Assembly (NCBI GenBank): GCA_900299035.1
Contig: OMIG01000185.1
Coordinates: 1-34,137 of the forward strand
DNA from: Pseudomonadota bacterium
GTDB taxonomy: Bacteria; Bdellovibrionota_C; UBA2361; OMII01
Direction of reading: 5' to 3'
DNA: 34,137 nucleotides
The notes beneath the pieces are model-generated. The model was not told the DNA's origin. It saw nothing but the letters and a program-made list of their open reading frames with translations, and searched no databases. The position numbers and the translations under genes were made by a program. Positions 18,073 through 28,677 of this stretch are shown one piece after another; the stretch's first letter is position 1, and each line of letters opens with the position of its first letter.

Positions 18073-20493
18073 ATGCTCCGCTTCATCGAAATTCAATTCC
18101 TGGGGTTCGTTGAGTGGTTCTACACCCTCGACGCAGTCGTCGGCCTGATGACCCTCGGAGTGTTGGCGGTCGGCCTGCTGATCGCTCAGTTCTTCATCAC
18201 CGGCAACACCACTCTCGGCAAAACTTTTATTCCGGGAGCGCTCGGGCTTCTGTTCTTCGTGGCCGAGATCTGTCACCTAACGGAAGAGAGAAATGGGCAA
18301 TTTCCCGGAAAAGTGAGCCAAGGAGCGCAGAATCTAGCTAAGCAGCTTCAAGAGGAACGCTCGCCTGCAGAGCGGCTCGCTCCTCTGCCCTTAGTAGAGC
18401 CAGGCGTTGAATTCTTTATCGCCCCGAGCACTCACCGCTTCGTGTGGGAAGAGAGCCTCTTCATCGTCCTGGCAGGGTACCTGCTTCTGGTGGGCCGCCA
18501 CAGCTGGCGCGAGTACAAGAAGACCGGAATCATCATCGGCGACCTGTCGGTTTCTTCGATCGTCAAAGAGAAGCACCGCAGGCCCAAGCGCTCGATGACG
18601 AACGAGCTTGGCTCGGGCGACCTTGCAAACACCGAGCAGATTGCAAACTGGACAAAGCCCACCGGCAAGGCTGGTGACACATCGCTGTACGTGAAAGAGT
18701 TGCGAGGCTCCGAAGGGGTGGCTTTCAACCAAGCCAAGCTCGTTCTGCCGCGCGAAGAGCGAAACCGTCACGTCCTGATCGTCGCCAAGACCGGAGGAGG
18801 AAAGACGACCAAGTTCATCAAGCCGATCCTGTACAACGACTGCATGGATCCCGATCGGTCGTCTATCGTCATCGACTCTAAGCCTGAGATGTGGCGCACC
18901 CTAGCGGCGATGACGCGCAAGTACAACCCGAAGAAGAACATTCTGCTCTTCAACCCGCTCGACCGCGACCGATCCCTTAGCTGGAACATCCTTGCCAAGG
19001 TCGAAGACGACACTGACTGTAAGCTCATCGCCCAGACGGTCATATCTGCAACCGACCAGCCTCAGGCGAAGTCAGACAGCCCGTTCTTCCGCAACAACGC
19101 CCTCGCTGTCCTGAACTCAGTCATGGTGGGCCTGCTGCACGATCCGACGGAAGTGCTCTCGATGCCCCGCATCCACCAGCTAGTCCAGTCTGGAATGAAG
19201 GGGCTGTGCGACTGGATCGAGGTGCACCCGCACGCCATCCGAAATTCGCGCGCGTTCGTGGAGCTGGCACGGTCCGGCTCGCAGAACGCCGACACGATCA
19301 TGTCCGAGCTGAGCATGCGCCTGAGCGCTTGGGACCTCACGGCCATTCGCGCGACGACCTTTCACAACGAGCTGGACATCGAAGACCTGATCCAGAAGCC
19401 TACGCTGTTCATCGTCGAGCTGCGCGAGTCTGAGCTCGAAATGCTTCGCCCGATGGCAAACGTGATCGTGGTTGAGCTGCTGCGCTTCCTCACCAAGCGC
19501 GCTGAGCAGTGCCCCGGCAACGCCCTGCCTCGGCCCGTCGGGCTCGTCATCGACGAGTTCGCGAGCGCTCTCGGCCGGCTGCCTGACATTCACGTGAAGC
19601 TCAACACCTTGCGCTCACGCAACGTCAGCATCGTGGCTGCCATCCAGTCTACTGCGCAGATCAAAGCCAACTACAACGACGATTCAGACTCCGTGCTGGC
19701 GGGCTTCAGCACCAAGATCTTCATGCCGCCGCTTGACCTGGCTGACTCGGAGTGGGCATCGAAAGAGAGCGGCCAGATGACCATTCGGTTCCAAACGCAG
19801 TCAGTCGGCGCCAACCGCAAGATGATCGAGGTGTTCGCCAGCCGTAACGACAGCACTCAGGAGCAGGTCCAGCAGCGCGCTGTGCTGACGCCGGACGAGA
19901 TCGGGCGCCCTGCCGACAACATCTGCACATTCTTTATGCCGAGCACACCCGTGTTCCAAGGCCACCTCATCCCCTTCTACAAGCTGCCGGAGCTCCTCAA
20001 GCCTCTCACGGAGTTTGAGAAGGGCGACTACGAGCTTAAGCTCCGCACCACAGCTATAGACTACGACGAGAAGCCGATTGAGCTGCCGAATGGCACAGGC
20101 GGCGGTGGCGGTGGCGGAGCGCAGGGCAGCGCAGCTCCCGGATTGCCGCCCGGCATCACGAACACTAAGGGCTGGTCTGAGGATCAGCTCCTGGAGAAGC
20201 TCACTGAGGTCAAGAAAAACCTCGACTGGGACAACACCACCGGCAGCGCGCGCAAGTGGTGGGAAGCCTTCGAGAGCGAGAACAAGACCCGCACCGCCCT
20301 CGTGCTGCGCCTGGCAGAGGAGCTCCAGAACCGCAAGGCAACGATTACAGAGTTCTTCCTGGCGTACGTCTACAGCAACACTGACAACATCCAGGCGAAC
20401 CTGAGCTACCTTGACTACACGCGCCTCAAGAAGGAAGAAGAGCGCAAGAAGAAAGAAGCCGCCTCCAAGGCTCTAGGCGACGGCTCGACGTAG
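18073..20493 (+). CDS. VirD4/TraG/TraD-like type IV coupling ATPase
   Basis: The 806-residue protein resembles the inner-membrane ATPase that feeds DNA or proteins into type IV secretion systems. Hydrophobic helices lie at about 20-44, 50-66 and 128-141. The ATPase domain begins about 230 with Walker A AKTGGGKTT (238-246), then SSIVIDSKPE typical of VirD4, Walker B LVIDEF (491-496) and the AAIQSTAQIKANY segment with Q525. A Gly-rich linker at about 675-682 separates a helical C-terminal region (about 695-800) ending in a Lys/Glu-rich tail. This tail is unlike the acidic tail of TraD and may bind substrates. No relaxase, VirB or mating-pair gene is visible, so it looks orphan. DNA translocases such as FtsK are less likely because the VirD4 motifs match better. 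Confidence 0.88.
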   Translation: MLRFIEIQFLGFVEWFYTLDAVVGLMTLGVLAVGLLIAQFFITGNTTLGKTFIPGALGLLFFVAEICHLTEERNGQFPGKVSQGAQNLAKQLQEERSPAERLAPLPLVEPGVEFFIAPSTHRFVWEESLFIVLAGYLLLVGRHSWREYKKTGIIIGDLSVSSIVKEKHRRPKRSMTNELGSGDLANTEQIANWTKPTGKAGDTSLYVKELRGSEGVAFNQAKLVLPREERNRHVLIVAKTGGGKTTKFIKPILYNDCMDPDRSSIVIDSKPEMWRTLAAMTRKYNPKKNILLFNPLDRDRSLSWNILAKVEDDTDCKLIAQTVISATDQPQAKSDSPFFRNNALAVLNSVMVGLLHDPTEVLSMPRIHQLVQSGMKGLCDWIEVHPHAIRNSRAFVELARSGSQNADTIMSELSMRLSAWDLTAIRATTFHNELDIEDLIQKPTLFIVELRESELEMLRPMANVIVVELLRFLTKRAEQCPGNALPRPVGLVIDEFASALGRLPDIHVKLNTLRSRNVSIVAAIQSTAQIKANYNDDSDSVLAGFSTKIFMPPLDLADSEWASKESGQMTIRFQTQSVGANRKMIEVFASRNDSTQEQVQQRAVLTPDEIGRPADNICTFFMPSTPVFQGHLIPFYKLPELLKPLTEFEKGDYELKLRTTAIDYDEKPIELPNGTGGGGGGGAQGSAAPGLPPGITNTKGWSEDQLLEKLTEVKKNLDWDNTTGSARKWWEAFESENKTRTALVLRLAEELQNRKATITEFFLAYVYSNTDNIQANLSYLDYTRLKKEEERKKKEAASKALGDGST

Positions 20494-22142: not shown

Positions 22143-25100
22143 TCAGTGCAGGTCGACAGGCTTAGCAGCGGGCCGGCGGCGCTCGCTGCCTAGGCCTATG
22201 AGCATCGCCAGCATCTTCTTCTTGATGTTTATGTCCTTGAAGAACTTGGCGACGTCATCGACGAGGTGGCTAAAGCCGGGCATGTGGGCCCAGTGGGCGT
22301 TGTAGGCCCGCAGCAAGCGATCGCGGTGGCGCACTCCTCGGCTCTCCAGGTAGGCGCAGATGCGCTCCTCAGAGTAGTCGGGCGATGACTGCCCTTCCTT
22401 GTTGAGCTTCATGATGTTGTAGACGTCGCGCGCCGTCGAGCACACTTCGTGCCCAAAGAGGCGCGTGGTTAGCTCCTCCAGCATCTGCGCTGGGACGCCT
22501 GCCTTGCGGCACATCTCCACCATGTCGGTGCCGTATTCGCGCTGGAAGGAGAGCCCCACCTGGAACATCATCTCGTCTGACCAGTTGATGTCTTCAGGAA
22601 TACGCTTGTTGCGGCGGTTGCCCGACGGTGGCGCGAGGACATCGAGCACAGCCGCTCCAAGCTCATCGCCTTTCATGCACGCCACCAAGTCGTAGATCTC
22701 GCTTGCTACTTCCTTCGCCGAATGTCCCTCGAGGTGCAGCAGGGTTTCGTTGATCAGGTCGAGGTCGATTTTCATCTCCTTGATGCAGCGGCGGAGCTGT
22801 GCGTCCGGGAATAGCAGGTCAAACACCTCCTCAATTGTCCGCTGGTCATCCTTGTTCGAGCGCAGGATATCCTGGAGCATGTCGATGTTGACCGAATCGA
22901 AGCTCTCAAGGAGCCGAGCCACGATCTCTGGGTCAATGCCCTCAAAGTGCAGGATCGCATCGGCAAAGAGCTGCGGGGTAAGTGCCTGTCGTGCCGCCCC
23001 GTACTTGAGGTGCTGGCGGAGGCGCGGAAACTCCATGTCGAAGGCACGCTCGAGCGCAAGCAGGCGGAGCAGAGGCAGCCCTGTCCAGTGCTGCCGCACG
23101 TTCTCCATGTCAGAGGCCGCGTCCCGCCGCATTGAGCGGAGCGCCTTATGGAAGGCATGCGCCTCCGGAAGCAGCACAAGCGCCAACACCTCTATGAGCC
23201 CATCTTCATCCTGCAGGGCGCTGTAGCGCTGGAGCAGGTGCTCATCCAGCCCCACAAAGTGAAGCTTCTCGAAGAGATCCCGAACAGCAGCTATCTGGGA
23301 GTGCGGCAGCTCGCGCAGCAGCAACAAGGCCGCCGGGTCGTCGTAGGCGCGCTGCACGATGTCTGCGCCATCGACCCCTGCGAGGACTAGCTCAATCGAG
23401 CTTAGCGCCTCAACAGAGAGGCTCTCGTCCAGCGCGAGGCGCAGCGGGACTTTAGGATCGGTCAGCTCGTAAAATGCCCGCTCAAGGCGGTTGAGTTCGT
23501 CGTAAGACTTGTTCCACAGCATCTCACGAACCGGCCGGTCCAGCTCGCCTATGTCAGCCTCTCGGTCGAGCACGTGGGCGACGTCAATTGCCGCCTGCGC
23601 ATCGTCGTCAGACGGCTTAAAATCCGGCTCCCAAACCCCAGGGGGCGGCTCATCCCCGCGGAAGCGGGCTAGGAGGTCCAAATTGAGCGGCCAACGCCCA
23701 TGACCATCTACGTAGCGGTGGTACGCTTCCTGAAGTTCGCGCGCGGAGAGCTTGATCTTGGCGGCTGCCAACCTGGCTTCGATCGCTGCCTTCGCCTCAA
23801 TTCCGTACAGGCAGCGGTAGGCCTGCTGCACCGCCAGGCACTCGCGTGGCGAGAGAAACTCAAAGGGCCGCAACATCTGGCCCAAGTCGAATGCCGAGGC
23901 TATTGCGTCGTGCAGTACTGTTGCCCTGCGCCGCGCATCGAACAGACCGAGGAAGGGGAACTGTGTCGGATCTATTTCATACCCGTACAGCTCGTAGAGC
24001 GCATCGTTCGTCTTCAAGAAACGTTCGAGTGATAGCGCCTGGAGCCGCTCGGCGATGATTTCGTACGAGACCAGTACCCGATGCCGGACGCTGGTTTTGC
24101 CGCGCCACATTCTGCGCTTCTTGAAACGCCGCAGGAACCGCCCAATGCCCTGAGTGAAATCACGATCTACTGAGTCCCGAGGATCGCTCAGCGAGTCCTC
24201 AAGCTCCTCGGATAAGGTCGCTGGGTACAGTACCTTGTGAATCTCTTCAGCCTCGGTGTGCGGCTTCCAGCCCGAGAAGAGCGATCCAAGCTTGTCCAGC
24301 TCAATGGCTGAGAAGCTCTTGCGCAGGTGCGCATCGAGCCCAGCGTCTGCCTCATCTGCGTGGCCATCGCCACAGTCGAGGTAGAAGCGTCGAATCAGCG
24401 CCAGCTCCTCGGAGCTTCGCCCCAGCAGCAAGTACCTAATCGCCTGGAGCTGATCGCGTGACTTAACAGCACTGATGCGCTTCGTCTCATACACTTCGGT
24501 TTTGCCGATGGTGCGCCGTCCTGCGCTTGAGGCGTCCTGGGCTGGTGGGTGGATTATTGCAAAAAGCTGCCGCGCGAGGTCTTTGTACGGAATGAGCAGG
24601 AACTCTTCGCGCAGAGCCCGCACCTGCATCTCGGTGCAGTCGAGCAGCATCGCCGTGATGCGCGCAGCCTTGTCCGCGTGGTCGCCGTGGTAGATGTCCC
24701 AGATCGCCTTGGCTGTGCCCTCGACATCGAGGCCTTTGACTATCCTGCCGATCCGGTCAGAGGCTTCGTGCCCGACGCGCTTAATGATCTGGTGGAATAT
24801 TTCGGGGCGCTCTCCACGGTCACGAATCGGAGTGTAAAAGTGCTCAGTAAAAAAGTCGTTGGTTCTGTCGAGAATCTCCTTCATCTCGCGCGGAGACTTC
24901 TCGGCCAAGACCACGTTGAATGCGCTCAGGTAGACATCAATGTCAGTCTCGCGAGCTTTCTGGGCCAACGTGTACACCTGGTTCGCGAGAGCCTCAGCTA
25001 CCTCCTGACGCTCTCGTCCGAGCGCTTCGATAGTGTGGCGGTCCAGGCGAGGCTCTGGCGCCGGGGGCGCCAGCGGTTCGGCCGCTAACTCGGCTAGCTT

Positions 25101-25307
25101 CGCTTCGCCGCCCTCAATAGCCAGGGGCCGGTAGTACTGGTCGAAGATCTCGCCTTGGTAGTAGTAGTGGGAGTAGTCGACTTTCTCTTGCGCGTCTTCC
25201 TGAGGCGCTTCTTGCTGAGGAGCCTGGTCTTGGGATGGGAGGGACTGAGAAGCGAGGAGCCGCTTCTTGAAAACTATCTTTTTCTCCCCCTGCCCCGAGT
25301 TATCCAT
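22143..25307 (-). CDS. Large alpha-helical repeat protein with annexin-like repeats, partner of a tandem MoxR ATPase
   Basis: The 1054-residue protein has no signal peptide or membrane helix. A Gln/Glu/Pro-rich N-terminal region (1-90) includes a Tyr-rich patch (VDYSHYYYQ). From about 185 to 960 it shows recurring helical units of about 72 residues. Examples start near 185 (IVKGLDVEG), 277, 461, 570, 646, 716 and 791. Several end in a hydrophobic residue plus xxG: LFSG at 343-346, YVDG at 532-535, VLAG at 641-644, HFEG at 787-790 and HLEG at 858-861. The unit length, KGL opening and mid-repeat (F/Y)xxxY-type helix recall annexin repeats, but canonical GxGT calcium loops are not clear. The gene begins 21 bases after the double AAA+ gene, so the two should form one system. 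No family is firmly recognised. Confidence 0.7.
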   Translation of the reverse strand: MDNSGQGEKKIVFKKRLLASQSLPSQDQAPQQEAPQEDAQEKVDYSHYYYQGEIFDQYYRPLAIEGGEAKLAELAAEPLAPPAPEPRLDRHTIEALGRERQEVAEALANQVYTLAQKARETDIDVYLSAFNVVLAEKSPREMKEILDRTNDFFTEHFYTPIRDRGERPEIFHQIIKRVGHEASDRIGRIVKGLDVEGTAKAIWDIYHGDHADKAARITAMLLDCTEMQVRALREEFLLIPYKDLARQLFAIIHPPAQDASSAGRRTIGKTEVYETKRISAVKSRDQLQAIRYLLLGRSSEELALIRRFYLDCGDGHADEADAGLDAHLRKSFSAIELDKLGSLFSGWKPHTEAEEIHKVLYPATLSEELEDSLSDPRDSVDRDFTQGIGRFLRRFKKRRMWRGKTSVRHRVLVSYEIIAERLQALSLERFLKTNDALYELYGYEIDPTQFPFLGLFDARRRATVLHDAIASAFDLGQMLRPFEFLSPRECLAVQQAYRCLYGIEAKAAIEARLAAAKIKLSARELQEAYHRYVDGHGRWPLNLDLLARFRGDEPPPGVWEPDFKPSDDDAQAAIDVAHVLDREADIGELDRPVREMLWNKSYDELNRLERAFYELTDPKVPLRLALDESLSVEALSSIELVLAGVDGADIVQRAYDDPAALLLLRELPHSQIAAVRDLFEKLHFVGLDEHLLQRYSALQDEDGLIEVLALVLLPEAHAFHKALRSMRRDAASDMENVRQHWTGLPLLRLLALERAFDMEFPRLRQHLKYGAARQALTPQLFADAILHFEGIDPEIVARLLESFDSVNIDMLQDILRSNKDDQRTIEEVFDLLFPDAQLRRCIKEMKIDLDLINETLLHLEGHSAKEVASEIYDLVACMKGDELGAAVLDVLAPPSGNRRNKRIPEDINWSDEMMFQVGLSFQREYGTDMVEMCRKAGVPAQMLEELTTRLFGHEVCSTARDVYNIMKLNKEGQSSPDYSEERICAYLESRGVRHRDRLLRAYNAHWAHMPGFSHLVDDVAKFFKDINIKKKMLAMLIGLGSERRRPAAKPVDLH

Positions 25308-25328
25308 GTAGGCAGCCCCACTTGCGCC

Positions 25329-27518
25329 TTAGACGTACTCCATCTCCAGCCAAGCGCGCTCGCGCTTGTCACGGTCAGGATCTTCAACGATGTCCTGCAG
25401 TATTATTCGGCCAAGTCGGGCGTAAATTACATCAATCGTGGCGTTTTTTCCGTCCATGTGGAGCGGATCCAAGAAATCCGGATGGAAGCGCAGCATGTGC
25501 TCCATAACTGCCCGATCATGCTCAGACTTTGCGATCATGCACCACACGTTCTTCCCTACCCAGGCGAAGTCTGCTGCTCCCCAGTCGAGCATGCGCTGGA
25601 CGTAGTGGCCGATTGAGAGCAGCTCCTCAGGAGCCGGCGGACGCTCAAACTGGTAGGTGCCCTCGCTATTGCGCATGCGGTCAGCGACCCACACCAGGTT
25701 CGTCACGAGCTGCGGCATGCAGTGCTTTGAGAGCACACGGCGCTCGAGCGTAGAGTCGAGGTACGCCATCCGTATCGGGTGAATACGCCGCAGGAACGCG
25801 TCATCGAGCTTGCGATTAAAGTTCTTGGTAAAGATTACGAGCAGGTTGTCTACGTTGCAGTCAATCGGCGGCCGTGACTCAAGCCAGATACGGGCGTCCT
25901 GGATTGGCCCGAGGAAGAAGGTGTCGATGTGGCTCTCAACCTTGTCTATCTCGTCTATGAGCAGGATGACTGGCTGGCTCTGGGACTTGAGGAACGCCCG
26001 CGAGAGAATGCCAAGGTTCATGAGCTTGTCTTTCGCCTGGCTTTCCTGTCCTGCCATTGAGCTGGCGATGGCAAGCGCTGACGGGACCTCAATCAAGTGG
26101 GAGGTGTTCATGCCCTGGTAGCAGCTCAAGCACATGAAGTCTGCGCCAGTGACCTTTGCGAGACACTTGGCCAAAAAGCTCTTTCCGCAGCCTGATGGCC
26201 CTTCGAGCAGCACGGCTCGTGTGCGGTCTGAGGGGGTTGTGAGCAGGAGCGACATCTGCGTTGCGGTGAATCTTGCGCACTGGTACCCCACGGCCGCCAG
26301 ACGGCGCGCCATCTCTTCAGGGTCGTCAAACTTGGTGAGCCCTACCTTCTCGGGCCGGTACGCCTTGCCGCGCCGCTTAGCTTCTGGGTCATCGACAATC
26401 TCCTCCAGCAGCCAGCGACCAAGCCGCGCGTGAATCTGCTCGATCGGGGCGTTGCGGTTGTCTGGCACGAGCGGGTCCGCGAACATCGGGTGGTAGCGCA
26501 TCATCTGCTCAAAGACGGTGCGGTCGTGCTCTGACTTAGAGAGCATGTAGAACAGGTTTCGTCCCACGAACGCGAAATCTATCAAGTCCCAGGTGAGGAG
26601 GTGCTGCAGGTAGTGGGCGGCCTTGAGGAGCTCCTCAGGCGCCGGTGGGCGCTCGAAGGGGTAGCTGCCGTCGGAGGCTCGCATCAGGTCTGCGATGCGG
26701 ATGAGGTTCTCAGCCAAGCGCGGCTTACAGTGGGGCGCGAGCACGCGCCGCTCCAGCGCTGAGTCCATAAAGCGCATGCGCAGCGGATGAACACGGCGAA
26801 GGAGGGCCTCGCTGATCGGGCGCTCGAAGTTCTTTGTGAAGATGATGACGAGATTCTCGAGGTTGGCGTCTATCGGCGGCCGTGACTCAAGCCACACACG
26901 CGCGTCCTGAATCGGGCCGAGGAAGAACGTGTCGATAGCCACGTCTACCTTGTCGATTTCGTCGATGAGCAGGATGACCGGCTTCTTCTGCGAAGTAAGA
27001 AACGCCTTCGAGATAATGCCGAGGTTCATCAGCTTGTCTTGGTCGAGCTCACCCTTTCCAGCCATGGCGTTCACCATGCCCAGGGTCGACGGAATCTCAA
27101 GGAGGTGCTGCAAGTTCATGCCCTTGTAGCACGAGAGACACATCAGCTCAGCGCCTGTGATCTTGGCCAGCGACTTGGCCATGAAGCTCTTACCGCAGCC
27201 TGACGGGCCTTCTAGCAGGATACACTTGATGCTGTTGAGCTGCGTGTTGAGGAGCAGCGAGAGCTGCACGGCGTAAAACGGGAGACAGTGGTAGCCGACT
27301 TCTGCCAGCTTAAGCTCAAGCTGTTCAGGCGTGCCTACGTGCTGAAAGCCGAGAGCCTCCGGCTTGTAGTCAGAATGAAAGTTGGGGTTAACGATTCCAA
27401 GTTCGCTGCCGTCAGTCCTAGCCTTGCCGTCATCGACAAACTTGCCGAAGCGGAACTGGTAGTTCCGAGAGCTGGAGCCCGACTCGTTATTTCCGCCGTT
27501 ATTGCCGTCCTGTGTCAT
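25329..27518 (-). CDS. Tandem MoxR-like double AAA+ ATPase
   Basis: The 729-residue protein contains two closely similar halves of about 336 residues each. Walker A is GPSGCGKS at 104-111 and again at 440-447. Walker B is LLIDEIDK at 183-190 and 519-526. Each half also repeats CLSCY, DKLMNLGI, DTFFLGPIQDAR, WLESRPPID, an arginine-finger-like LRR(V/I)HP and FERPPAPEELL. The first 60 residues are polar. MoxR-type ATPases usually act as chaperones that remodel a partner, often a VWA-domain protein; here the next gene encodes a helical-repeat protein instead. ATG 27518 has a GGAGG site 11 bases upstream; a TTG at 27572 is an alternative. Both ATPase sites look intact. Cytoplasmic location is inferred. 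Confidence 0.85.
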   Translation of the reverse strand: MTQDGNNGGNNESGSSSRNYQFRFGKFVDDGKARTDGSELGIVNPNFHSDYKPEALGFQHVGTPEQLELKLAEVGYHCLPFYAVQLSLLLNTQLNSIKCILLEGPSGCGKSFMAKSLAKITGAELMCLSCYKGMNLQHLLEIPSTLGMVNAMAGKGELDQDKLMNLGIISKAFLTSQKKPVILLIDEIDKVDVAIDTFFLGPIQDARVWLESRPPIDANLENLVIIFTKNFERPISEALLRRVHPLRMRFMDSALERRVLAPHCKPRLAENLIRIADLMRASDGSYPFERPPAPEELLKAAHYLQHLLTWDLIDFAFVGRNLFYMLSKSEHDRTVFEQMMRYHPMFADPLVPDNRNAPIEQIHARLGRWLLEEIVDDPEAKRRGKAYRPEKVGLTKFDDPEEMARRLAAVGYQCARFTATQMSLLLTTPSDRTRAVLLEGPSGCGKSFLAKCLAKVTGADFMCLSCYQGMNTSHLIEVPSALAIASSMAGQESQAKDKLMNLGILSRAFLKSQSQPVILLIDEIDKVESHIDTFFLGPIQDARIWLESRPPIDCNVDNLLVIFTKNFNRKLDDAFLRRIHPIRMAYLDSTLERRVLSKHCMPQLVTNLVWVADRMRNSEGTYQFERPPAPEELLSIGHYVQRMLDWGAADFAWVGKNVWCMIAKSEHDRAVMEHMLRFHPDFLDPLHMDGKNATIDVIYARLGRIILQDIVEDPDRDKRERAWLEMEYV

Positions 27519-27780
27519 GCCGAGAGAAACCTCCGGAGAGCGCGCCTGAGAGAAAAACCCTTTTCCACTCAAGATAGTTATGGCGGTTTTGGGCCGCCGA
27601 GTAGCATTTGGGCTCTTCTAGTCCCTAAGAGATCGCTGATGAAGGGGCTTTTGCTTCTAAAAATCAGCTAACCTATTGATATTCCATGCCTTGTGAGTTT
27701 CTTCGGAGCAGCAAGATTTTTAGCGGTGGAGCCTCATGCTTTCCGCTGGGGAGCCGTTACGTTCGGTAGAGAGATTGAAC

Positions 27781-27816
27781 TGGTCCCAAGGACGAGGACC
27801 AAAAGGTAAGGACAAG
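27781..27816 (+). promoter_or_regulatory. Flagellin leader hairpin with two CsrA-like AAGGA motifs
   Basis: TGGTCC (27781-27786) pairs with GGACCA (27796-27801) around a 9-base loop that presents AAGGA (27788-27792). A second AAGGA (27808-27812) forms the ribosome binding site 4 bases before the start. This paired arrangement resembles CsrA-repressed leaders, including Bacillus hag. Confidence 0.5.
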
Positions 27817-28677
27817 ATGTCTGTTGTAGTCGCCGCCAACCTAGTCTCGCTGCGTCTCCAAACTCAGCTCAAGAAAACCACAGCCGCGCTCGGCACCGTG
27901 TACGAGCGGCTAGGCTCCGGCCTGCGAATTAACTCCGGCGCCGACGATCCAGCGGGCCTGGCGCTGGCTGACAAGCTGCGCTCTCAGAGCAAGATCTTCG
28001 CTGTTGCAATCCGAAACGCGAACGACGGCTTGTCGTTCACCACAAGTGCTGACTCAGGGCTCGCAGAGATTACGTCTCTGCTGCAGCGCATGTCAGAGCT
28101 GGCCAGCCAGGGAGCCAATTCGCTCTACTCCCTCACGCAACGCTCGGCCTTGCAGACTGAGTTTGCCGCCCTGGGCTCTGAGATCAACCGAATCGCGGAG
28201 GTCTCTCAGTTCAATGGGCTGGGCACCCTAAAGAACAGCAGCAACCAAGTCATTCAGGTAGGGCTATCATCCGATGCCTCATCGCGAATCGAGATACGAT
28301 CAGTCTCTGCCTCACTAGGAGAACTAGGGATCGGCTCTGGCAACACTCTCACCTACTCCCTCACAGGCACCTCAATAGACGCAGCCATGAGCGCCAGCAG
28401 GCTCGCCATAACTGCGCTCGCTGCCGCGGTTGACGAGGTGGCATTACAGAGAGGAACTATCGGAGCGGCATCCGAGCGCTTGAGGGCAGCCGTCAACACT
28501 CTCTCCGTCATGCGGGAGAACGCTCTGGCAGCCGAAAGCCAGGTACGAGACGCGGATATCGCGGAGGATGTCGCCAAACTCACTCGGCTTCAGGTTCTCT
28601 CGAAATCACAGGTCGCTCTCATGGCGCAGGCTAACCAGGAGCCTGCCCTGGCGCTGAAACTGTTGGGATCCAACTAA
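27817..28677 (+). CDS. Flagellin, short form
   Basis: The 286-residue protein is the filament subunit exported by the flagellar type III system. The N-terminal D0/D1 region (about 1-140) includes ERLGSGLRINSGADDPAGLA and the IRNANDGLSF segment. The C-terminal D1/D0 region (about 195-286) ends with RDADIAEDVAKLTRLQ and QANQEPALALKLL. There is little sequence between them, so surface D2/D3 domains are essentially absent. ATG 27817 is chosen because it follows an AAGGA ribosome binding site and begins the family-like MSVVVAANL; an upstream ATG at 27736 would add 27 unrelated residues. No other flagellar gene is in the window. The leader has hairpin and CsrA-like motifs. Confidence 0.93.
   Translation: MSVVVAANLVSLRLQTQLKKTTAALGTVYERLGSGLRINSGADDPAGLALADKLRSQSKIFAVAIRNANDGLSFTTSADSGLAEITSLLQRMSELASQGANSLYSLTQRSALQTEFAALGSEINRIAEVSQFNGLGTLKNSSNQVIQVGLSSDASSRIEIRSVSASLGELGIGSGNTLTYSLTGTSIDAAMSASRLAITALAAAVDEVALQRGTIGAASERLRAAVNTLSVMRENALAAESQVRDADIAEDVAKLTRLQVLSKSQVALMAQANQEPALALKLLGSN

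Follow-up and report, generated by a model that had tools for sequence, protein, structure and literature searches.

Adjacent genes in an uncultured freshwater bacterium encode an AAA+ ATPase with two intact domains per chain and a 1054-residue repeat protein that profile searches and a predicted model justify calling an annexin in fold. At somewhat less than even confidence, comparative analysis leads us to regard this annexin-type scaffold as the dedicated partner of a two-domain AAA+ remodeller, filling the role that VWA proteins play in MoxR systems. Both genes lie on the minus strand of the window, the 34,137-nucleotide stretch analysed here, which is contig 185 of a 3.0 Mb draft genome, and a gap of 21 bases separates them (25308-25328), as originally predicted (Table 1). 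Comparisons were drawn within a sample of the phylum comprising 46 genomes of one class, 29 of them from a single order. Against the orthologues in genome G002, pN is 0.105 and pS 0.77 for the annexin-repeat protein, and the corresponding values for the ATPase are 0.037 and 0.60. With pN far below pS in both cases, the genes are under purifying selection and neither is a chance open reading frame; at nonsynonymous sites, the annexin-repeat protein evolves about three times faster than its paired ATPase.

Table 1. Gene pair, domains, motifs and repeat units in window coordinates, with loci of related giant proteins; each unit score is set against the maximum of its shuffled controls
Feature	Position	Strand	Details
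Double AAA+ ATPase gene	25329-27518	-	729 aa from ATG 27518; 747 aa if TTG 27572
AAA+ domain D1 and helical lid	26403-27392	-	residues 61-390 of 747-aa reading
D1 Walker A	27186-27209	-	
D1 Walker B	26952-26978	-	
AAA+ domain D2 and helical lid	25368-26372	-	residues 401-735 of 747-aa reading
D2 Walker A	26178-26201	-	
D2 Walker B	25944-25970	-	
Annexin-repeat protein gene	22143-25307	-	1054 aa
Basic motif EKKIVFKKRL	25257-25286	-	residues 8-17, disordered N-terminal tail of annexin protein
Unit R1	24729-25046	-	aa 88-193; moderate; P 44, score 22.7 vs 13.2; helices
Unit R2	24522-24728	-	aa 194-262; moderate; P 48, score 21.6 vs 13.9
Unit R3	24270-24512	-	aa 266-346; strong; P 94, E 1.6e-7, score 35.2 vs 14.2
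Unit R4	23940-24269	-	aa 347-456, disordered insert; moderate; P 55, score 24.0 vs 12.9
Unit R5	23697-23939	-	aa 457-537; strong, all five helices; P 96, E 5.7e-9, score 41.3 vs 13.0
Unit R6	23373-23621	-	aa 563-645; strong; P 93, E 3.5e-7, score 33.8 vs 16.4
Unit R7	23175-23372	-	aa 646-711; strong; P 94, E 1.2e-7, score 34.3 vs 12.5
Unit R8	22932-23174	-	aa 712-792; weak, predicted helices; P 13.5, score 17.6 vs 13.6
Unit R9	22725-22931	-	aa 793-861; weak, predicted helices; P 4.7, score 14.6 vs 13.5
Unit R10	22452-22724	-	aa 862-952; moderate; P 42, score 21.9 vs 14.4
Unit R11	22191-22451	-	aa 953-1039; strong; P 88.5, E 2.7e-6, score 30.4 vs 12.1
Giant annexin-repeat loci of the order	L083:6891-13193; L084:5265-17807; L092:2-9817; L096:1-13323; L099:101-10768; L097:4026-11216		

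As a single sequence, the large protein returns no match in Pfam and none in the PDB. A family profile (A1) built from 13 homologues and searched against all PDB sequences up to an E of 10 retrieves 38 matches, every one of them an annexin (one being a giardin, an annexin homologue), with a best E of 3.2e-6. The Pfam annexin model matches six of the 13 homologues (best 7.8e-6), and the orthologue in G026 exceeds its curated cut-off. The AlphaFold model of the window protein is all helical (pLDDT 81.8, pTM 0.74), and the 50 PDB matches listed for it by Foldseek are all annexins or annexin fusions, led by annexin VI (PDB 1m9i; E 1.4e-7 over 666 aligned columns, with an rmsd of 29 Å). An annexin likeness had originally been guessed at from unit length and motif rhythm; profile search, Pfam matches to the homologues and the fold of the predicted model all bear it out, and the profile and fold comparisons retrieved only annexins rather than some unrelated, characterised family. 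The overall architecture is another matter. The predicted model holds about 11 units in place of a compact four-repeat annexin core, its global TM-score to annexins is low, and the large rmsd to annexin VI indicates that the repeats are arranged otherwise than in the compact annexin disc. Pfam recognises no catalytic domain in the protein.

Eleven units were drawn from the helices of the predicted model, and each was aligned by hhalign with an annexin profile built solely from other annexin proteins of the order, alongside 40 column-shuffled controls per unit. Support is strong for R3, R5, R6, R7 and R11 (P 88-96), moderate for R1, R2, R4 and R10 (P 42-55) and weak for R8 and R9; nine of the 11 units are thus supported by sequence, and R8 and R9 come from the predicted model alone. 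The prediction had described units of about 72 residues, several closing on a hydrophobic residue followed by xxG. The repeats exist and such endings are real (LFSG, LVLAG, HFEG, HLEG, RLFG), whereas the stated length proved only approximate, the helix-defined units spanning about 66 to 110 residues because some contain insertions.

The annexin fold binds membranes in animals and plants, and annexins are regarded as eukaryotic calcium-dependent membrane proteins whose bacterial relatives are few and patchy. The core of the type II calcium motif GxGT-(38)-D/E, searched for as GxG[T/V][D/N/S/Y], occurs in none of the 13 homologues of the large protein; other annexins encoded in the order possess it. 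Without calcium sites the customary route to membrane binding is gone, and this loss, judged from the sequences, argues against ordinary annexin-type membrane binding by this protein, for which the label of a calcium-dependent membrane annexin is not justified. Its disordered N-terminal tail carries a basic motif at residues 8-17, where column conservation within the genus averages 86%, against 55% in the linker that follows (residues 18-62); the motif is a possible recognition tail.

The ATPase contains the two intact cores that had been predicted, each with Walker A GPSGCGKS, Walker B VILLIDEID, sensor-1 FTKN and an LRR arginine motif, and the two domains are 60% identical over 329 residues. 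The G001 homologue starts at the methionine encoded by the window's ATG at 27518. The original description of the protein as MoxR-like holds in the broad sense, its best Pfam family being AAA_5, and fails for MoxR proper: AAA_3 is absent from the best 25 Pfam families, all of which score at E ≤ 2.2e-4. The predicted secondary structure places short strands ahead of sensor 1 and within the helix-2 region (residues 159-161 and 182-184), which may reflect the pre-sensor-1 hairpin and helix-2 insert expected of the helix-2-insert clade. Searching folds with the complete ATPase model does not discriminate, the top matches being Cdc48, dynein and other multi-domain AAA+ proteins, and the nearest named records are metagenome assemblies labelled delta proteobacterium, Proteobacteria bacterium or bacterium. 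The best-scoring NCBIfam model is the MadB family AAA ATPase (NF047784), and membership of that family was rejected at 125 bits, far under the curated cut-off of 475 bits. Orthologues of the ATPase occur throughout the order and mostly have one AAA+ domain outside the window's genus. One genome, G016, encodes both the double and the single form, and the single-domain ATPases cluster together in the tree with class outgroups among them, so that the double form looks like a duplicated paralogue that may have replaced the single form in some lineages.

Ten of the 12 genomes in the genus carry homologues of the annexin-repeat protein (the other two are 60% and 70% complete), and outside the genus homologues occur in G017, G021, G022, G026 and G028 of the same order; they are absent from the remaining genomes of the 46-genome phylum sample. 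Absence of the gene pairing from close relatives would have refuted the original reading and was not observed: the pairing is kept in every genus genome in which the junction lies on one contig. At these nine junctions (G000, G001, G002, G004, G006, G008, G009, G010 and G011) the annexin gene follows the ATPase gene on the same strand, either no more than about 100 bases away or overlapping it slightly. This genus is the only one with direct adjacency. The two genes share a contig in G026, about 8 kb apart with four genes between them, and in G021 the annexin gene lies away from the ATPase gene with a different upstream neighbour.

The form of the ATPase follows the annexin gene more widely than adjacency does. 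Annexin-positive genomes with a readable ATPase carry the double form (the window's genus, G021, G026 and G028; genera g1, g11 and g13), and in G017 the ATPase fragment most resembles D2 of the double ATPase in G021 (70%). A single AAA+ domain was seen, and no annexin orthologue found, in G012-G015, G018, G019, G024, G025 and G027, representing nine genera. As an exception, no annexin orthologue was detected in G016 with its double and single ATPases, and G022 (88% complete) has the annexin protein with no ATPase found. In raw counts, uncorrected for descent and drawn in part from incomplete genomes, the double ATPase and the annexin protein tend to co-occur across the order. G023 retains the genes that in G026 flank the annexin gene and the ATPase gene, with no annexin gene between them. 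The double ATPase of this genome (L048:4976-7093) has an altered D1 Walker B, IEDID for IDEID, in which the DE order is lost, and its D1 is extremely divergent, on a branch of 8.7 changes per column in the tree, while D2 is normal. Decay of D1 where the annexin gene is gone suggests that D1 serves the annexin protein.

Some neighborhoods outside the genus deserve mention. In G016, the frame of a 611-residue protein of no known family (L046:10391-12226) shares 4 bases with the beginning of the double ATPase gene, and this protein may be a different partner. This frame and a 2204-residue frame, both upstream of that gene, were considered as annexin analogues and set aside when the family profile matched neither; the longer one presumably encodes a cyclic glucan synthase-like protein. 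In G017 (L026:6591-8276) and G021 (L030:4767-6440), a permease gene of an ABC transporter (ABC_tran_2), from the same cluster in both, is found close to the annexin orthologue.

Around the pair itself, a Pfam scan identified flagellin, cation efflux and glutathione peroxidase genes, and no VWA partner gene among the neighbours scanned. The flagellin gene (27736-28677) is divergent from and upstream of the ATPase gene, and its cluster (c2) recurs at each of the eight genus loci long enough to include it, with no further flagellar genes seen beside it. Also near the pair, at 18073-20493, lies a gene for an 806-residue type IV secretion coupling protein of the TraD/VirD4 kind, conserved there in several members of the genus. 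A plasmid origin of the pair was discarded when a tblastn search of plasmids gave no matches, as was a defence system, since PADLOC matched the ATPase to generic AAA models only and the large protein to nothing.

Annexin repeats are a common building block in this bacterial order. Some of the proteins built from them are giants, ranging in length from about 2,100 to over 4,400 residues and with Pfam annexin scores of up to 84 bits; they are related to each other over long stretches, several have intact GxGTD calcium motifs, and those scanned show no further Pfam domains over the cut-off. They were rejected as partners of the ATPase because no ATPase homologue was found beside them. Contig 237 of the genome that contains the window bears a giant frame (L107:2-6229, at least 2,075 residues), which shares a C-terminal domain (LLISLGISEKEYRELVAKIGEMEA) with a 2,396-residue annexin-type protein of G001. 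A C-terminal motif, K..MLxxLIxLGxSE, was considered as a link between the window's annexin protein and the giants and dropped, the pattern being found within the family solely in the window protein and its closest orthologue.

If the gene pair is one functional module, its upstream gene would provide a broadly MoxR-like, helix-2-insert AAA+ protein with two active domains per chain, for which a two-tier ring is expected, and its downstream gene a soluble, elongated scaffold of about 11 annexin-type repeats that has lost its calcium sites. The ring would engage the scaffold, possibly by the disordered but conserved tail at the N-terminus of the latter (GKKIVFKKR); hydrolysis of ATP would then remodel the scaffold, or a complex or membrane surface that the scaffold holds. 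We infer physical contact, ring formation, membrane or cargo binding and the direction of remodelling, with the scaffold acting as adaptor or substrate of the two-tier remodeller. More tentatively still, a two-tier AAA+ machine may have adopted a calcium-independent annexin scaffold, giving rise to a bacterial module for remodelling membranes or complexes that parallels MoxR-VWA systems. In favor of a module, profile and predicted model agree on an annexin fold, both ATPase domains keep their motifs, the genes are adjacent in the genus, and they tend to co-occur across the order. Adjacency in one genus only, the cases of G021, G026, G016 and G022 and the faster evolution of the annexin protein count against it.

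Alternatively, the annexin protein could be what the ATPase acts upon: it would self-assemble, whether membrane-bound or cytosolic, and the ATPase would dismantle the assembly by threading the disordered tail, as Vps4 does with ESCRT-III. A tail in which a conserved basic motif precedes a variable linker, intact motifs in both AAA+ domains of each chain, and many repeats without a recognised catalytic domain are consistent with such a relationship, which we nonetheless hold to be rather unlikely, as the ATPase family includes single-domain members in genomes that lack the annexin protein and therefore has other work. We are similarly doubtful that the genes are mere neighbours in one transcription unit whose products act separately, a frozen accident of one genus. 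The restriction of adjacency to that genus fits this explanation, as do the ABC transporter permease gene near the annexin gene in G017 and G021 and the flagellin, cation-efflux and glutathione peroxidase genes nearby with no evident functional link; the joint occurrence of double form and annexin gene in several genera, the synteny within 8 kb in G026 and the decayed D1 of G023, whose annexin gene has gone, do not. That the large protein is some other alpha-helical repeat that came to resemble annexins by convergence is highly improbable. The lack of single-sequence matches in Pfam and the PDB, the two of 11 units that barely exceed their shuffled controls, and the low global TM-score with its different repeat arrangement could be read that way, but all 38 PDB sequence matches of the profile are annexins, the 50 fold matches listed are annexins or annexin fusions, the G026 orthologue stands above the curated Pfam cut-off, and five units far exceed the column-shuffled nulls.

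Understood as a dedicated scaffold and its remodeller, the pair offers a concrete partner and context for a bacterial annexin, ties a conserved orthologous annexin protein without calcium sites to a putative ATP-driven remodeller, and bears on the original use of the annexin repeat. The literature searched, a partial coverage that is no proof of novelty, contained no paper on a MoxR-annexin pair. In eukaryotes, annexin VI forms two compact four-repeat discs with calcium sites. The window protein is predicted to share the five-helix repeat of this eight-repeat protein (PDB 1m9i), and unlike it has a different overall arrangement (rmsd 29 Å) and no GxGT-D motif. Among bacteria, the available portion of a survey of annexins counts at most five recognised domains per protein and describes annexin-annexin neighbours and fusions with toxins, lipases or proteases (Kodavali et al., 2014; PMC3894181). 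Our protein resembles those surveyed in having annexin-type repeats, found there in bacteria including deltaproteobacterial ones and very divergent from eukaryotic annexins, and in that repeats between the recognised ones may have diverged beyond recognition (PMC3894181). It differs in its AAA+ partner, a kind that the same portion of the survey does not describe (PMC3894181), and goes beyond it in having about 11 units and in belonging to a conserved orthologous family from which the calcium motif is wholly absent. MoxR proteins, for their part, typically accompany VWA partners (PMC12657314). Like RavA-ViaA, NorQ-NorD, CbbQ-CbbO and MSMEG_0748-0751, the present pair sets an AAA+ gene beside a larger partner gene in which no enzyme domain is recognised; unlike those systems, it has an annexin-repeat partner, two AAA+ domains per chain and a place outside AAA_3 (PMC12657314), and it widens the possible partners of MoxR-like ATPases past the VWA proteins.
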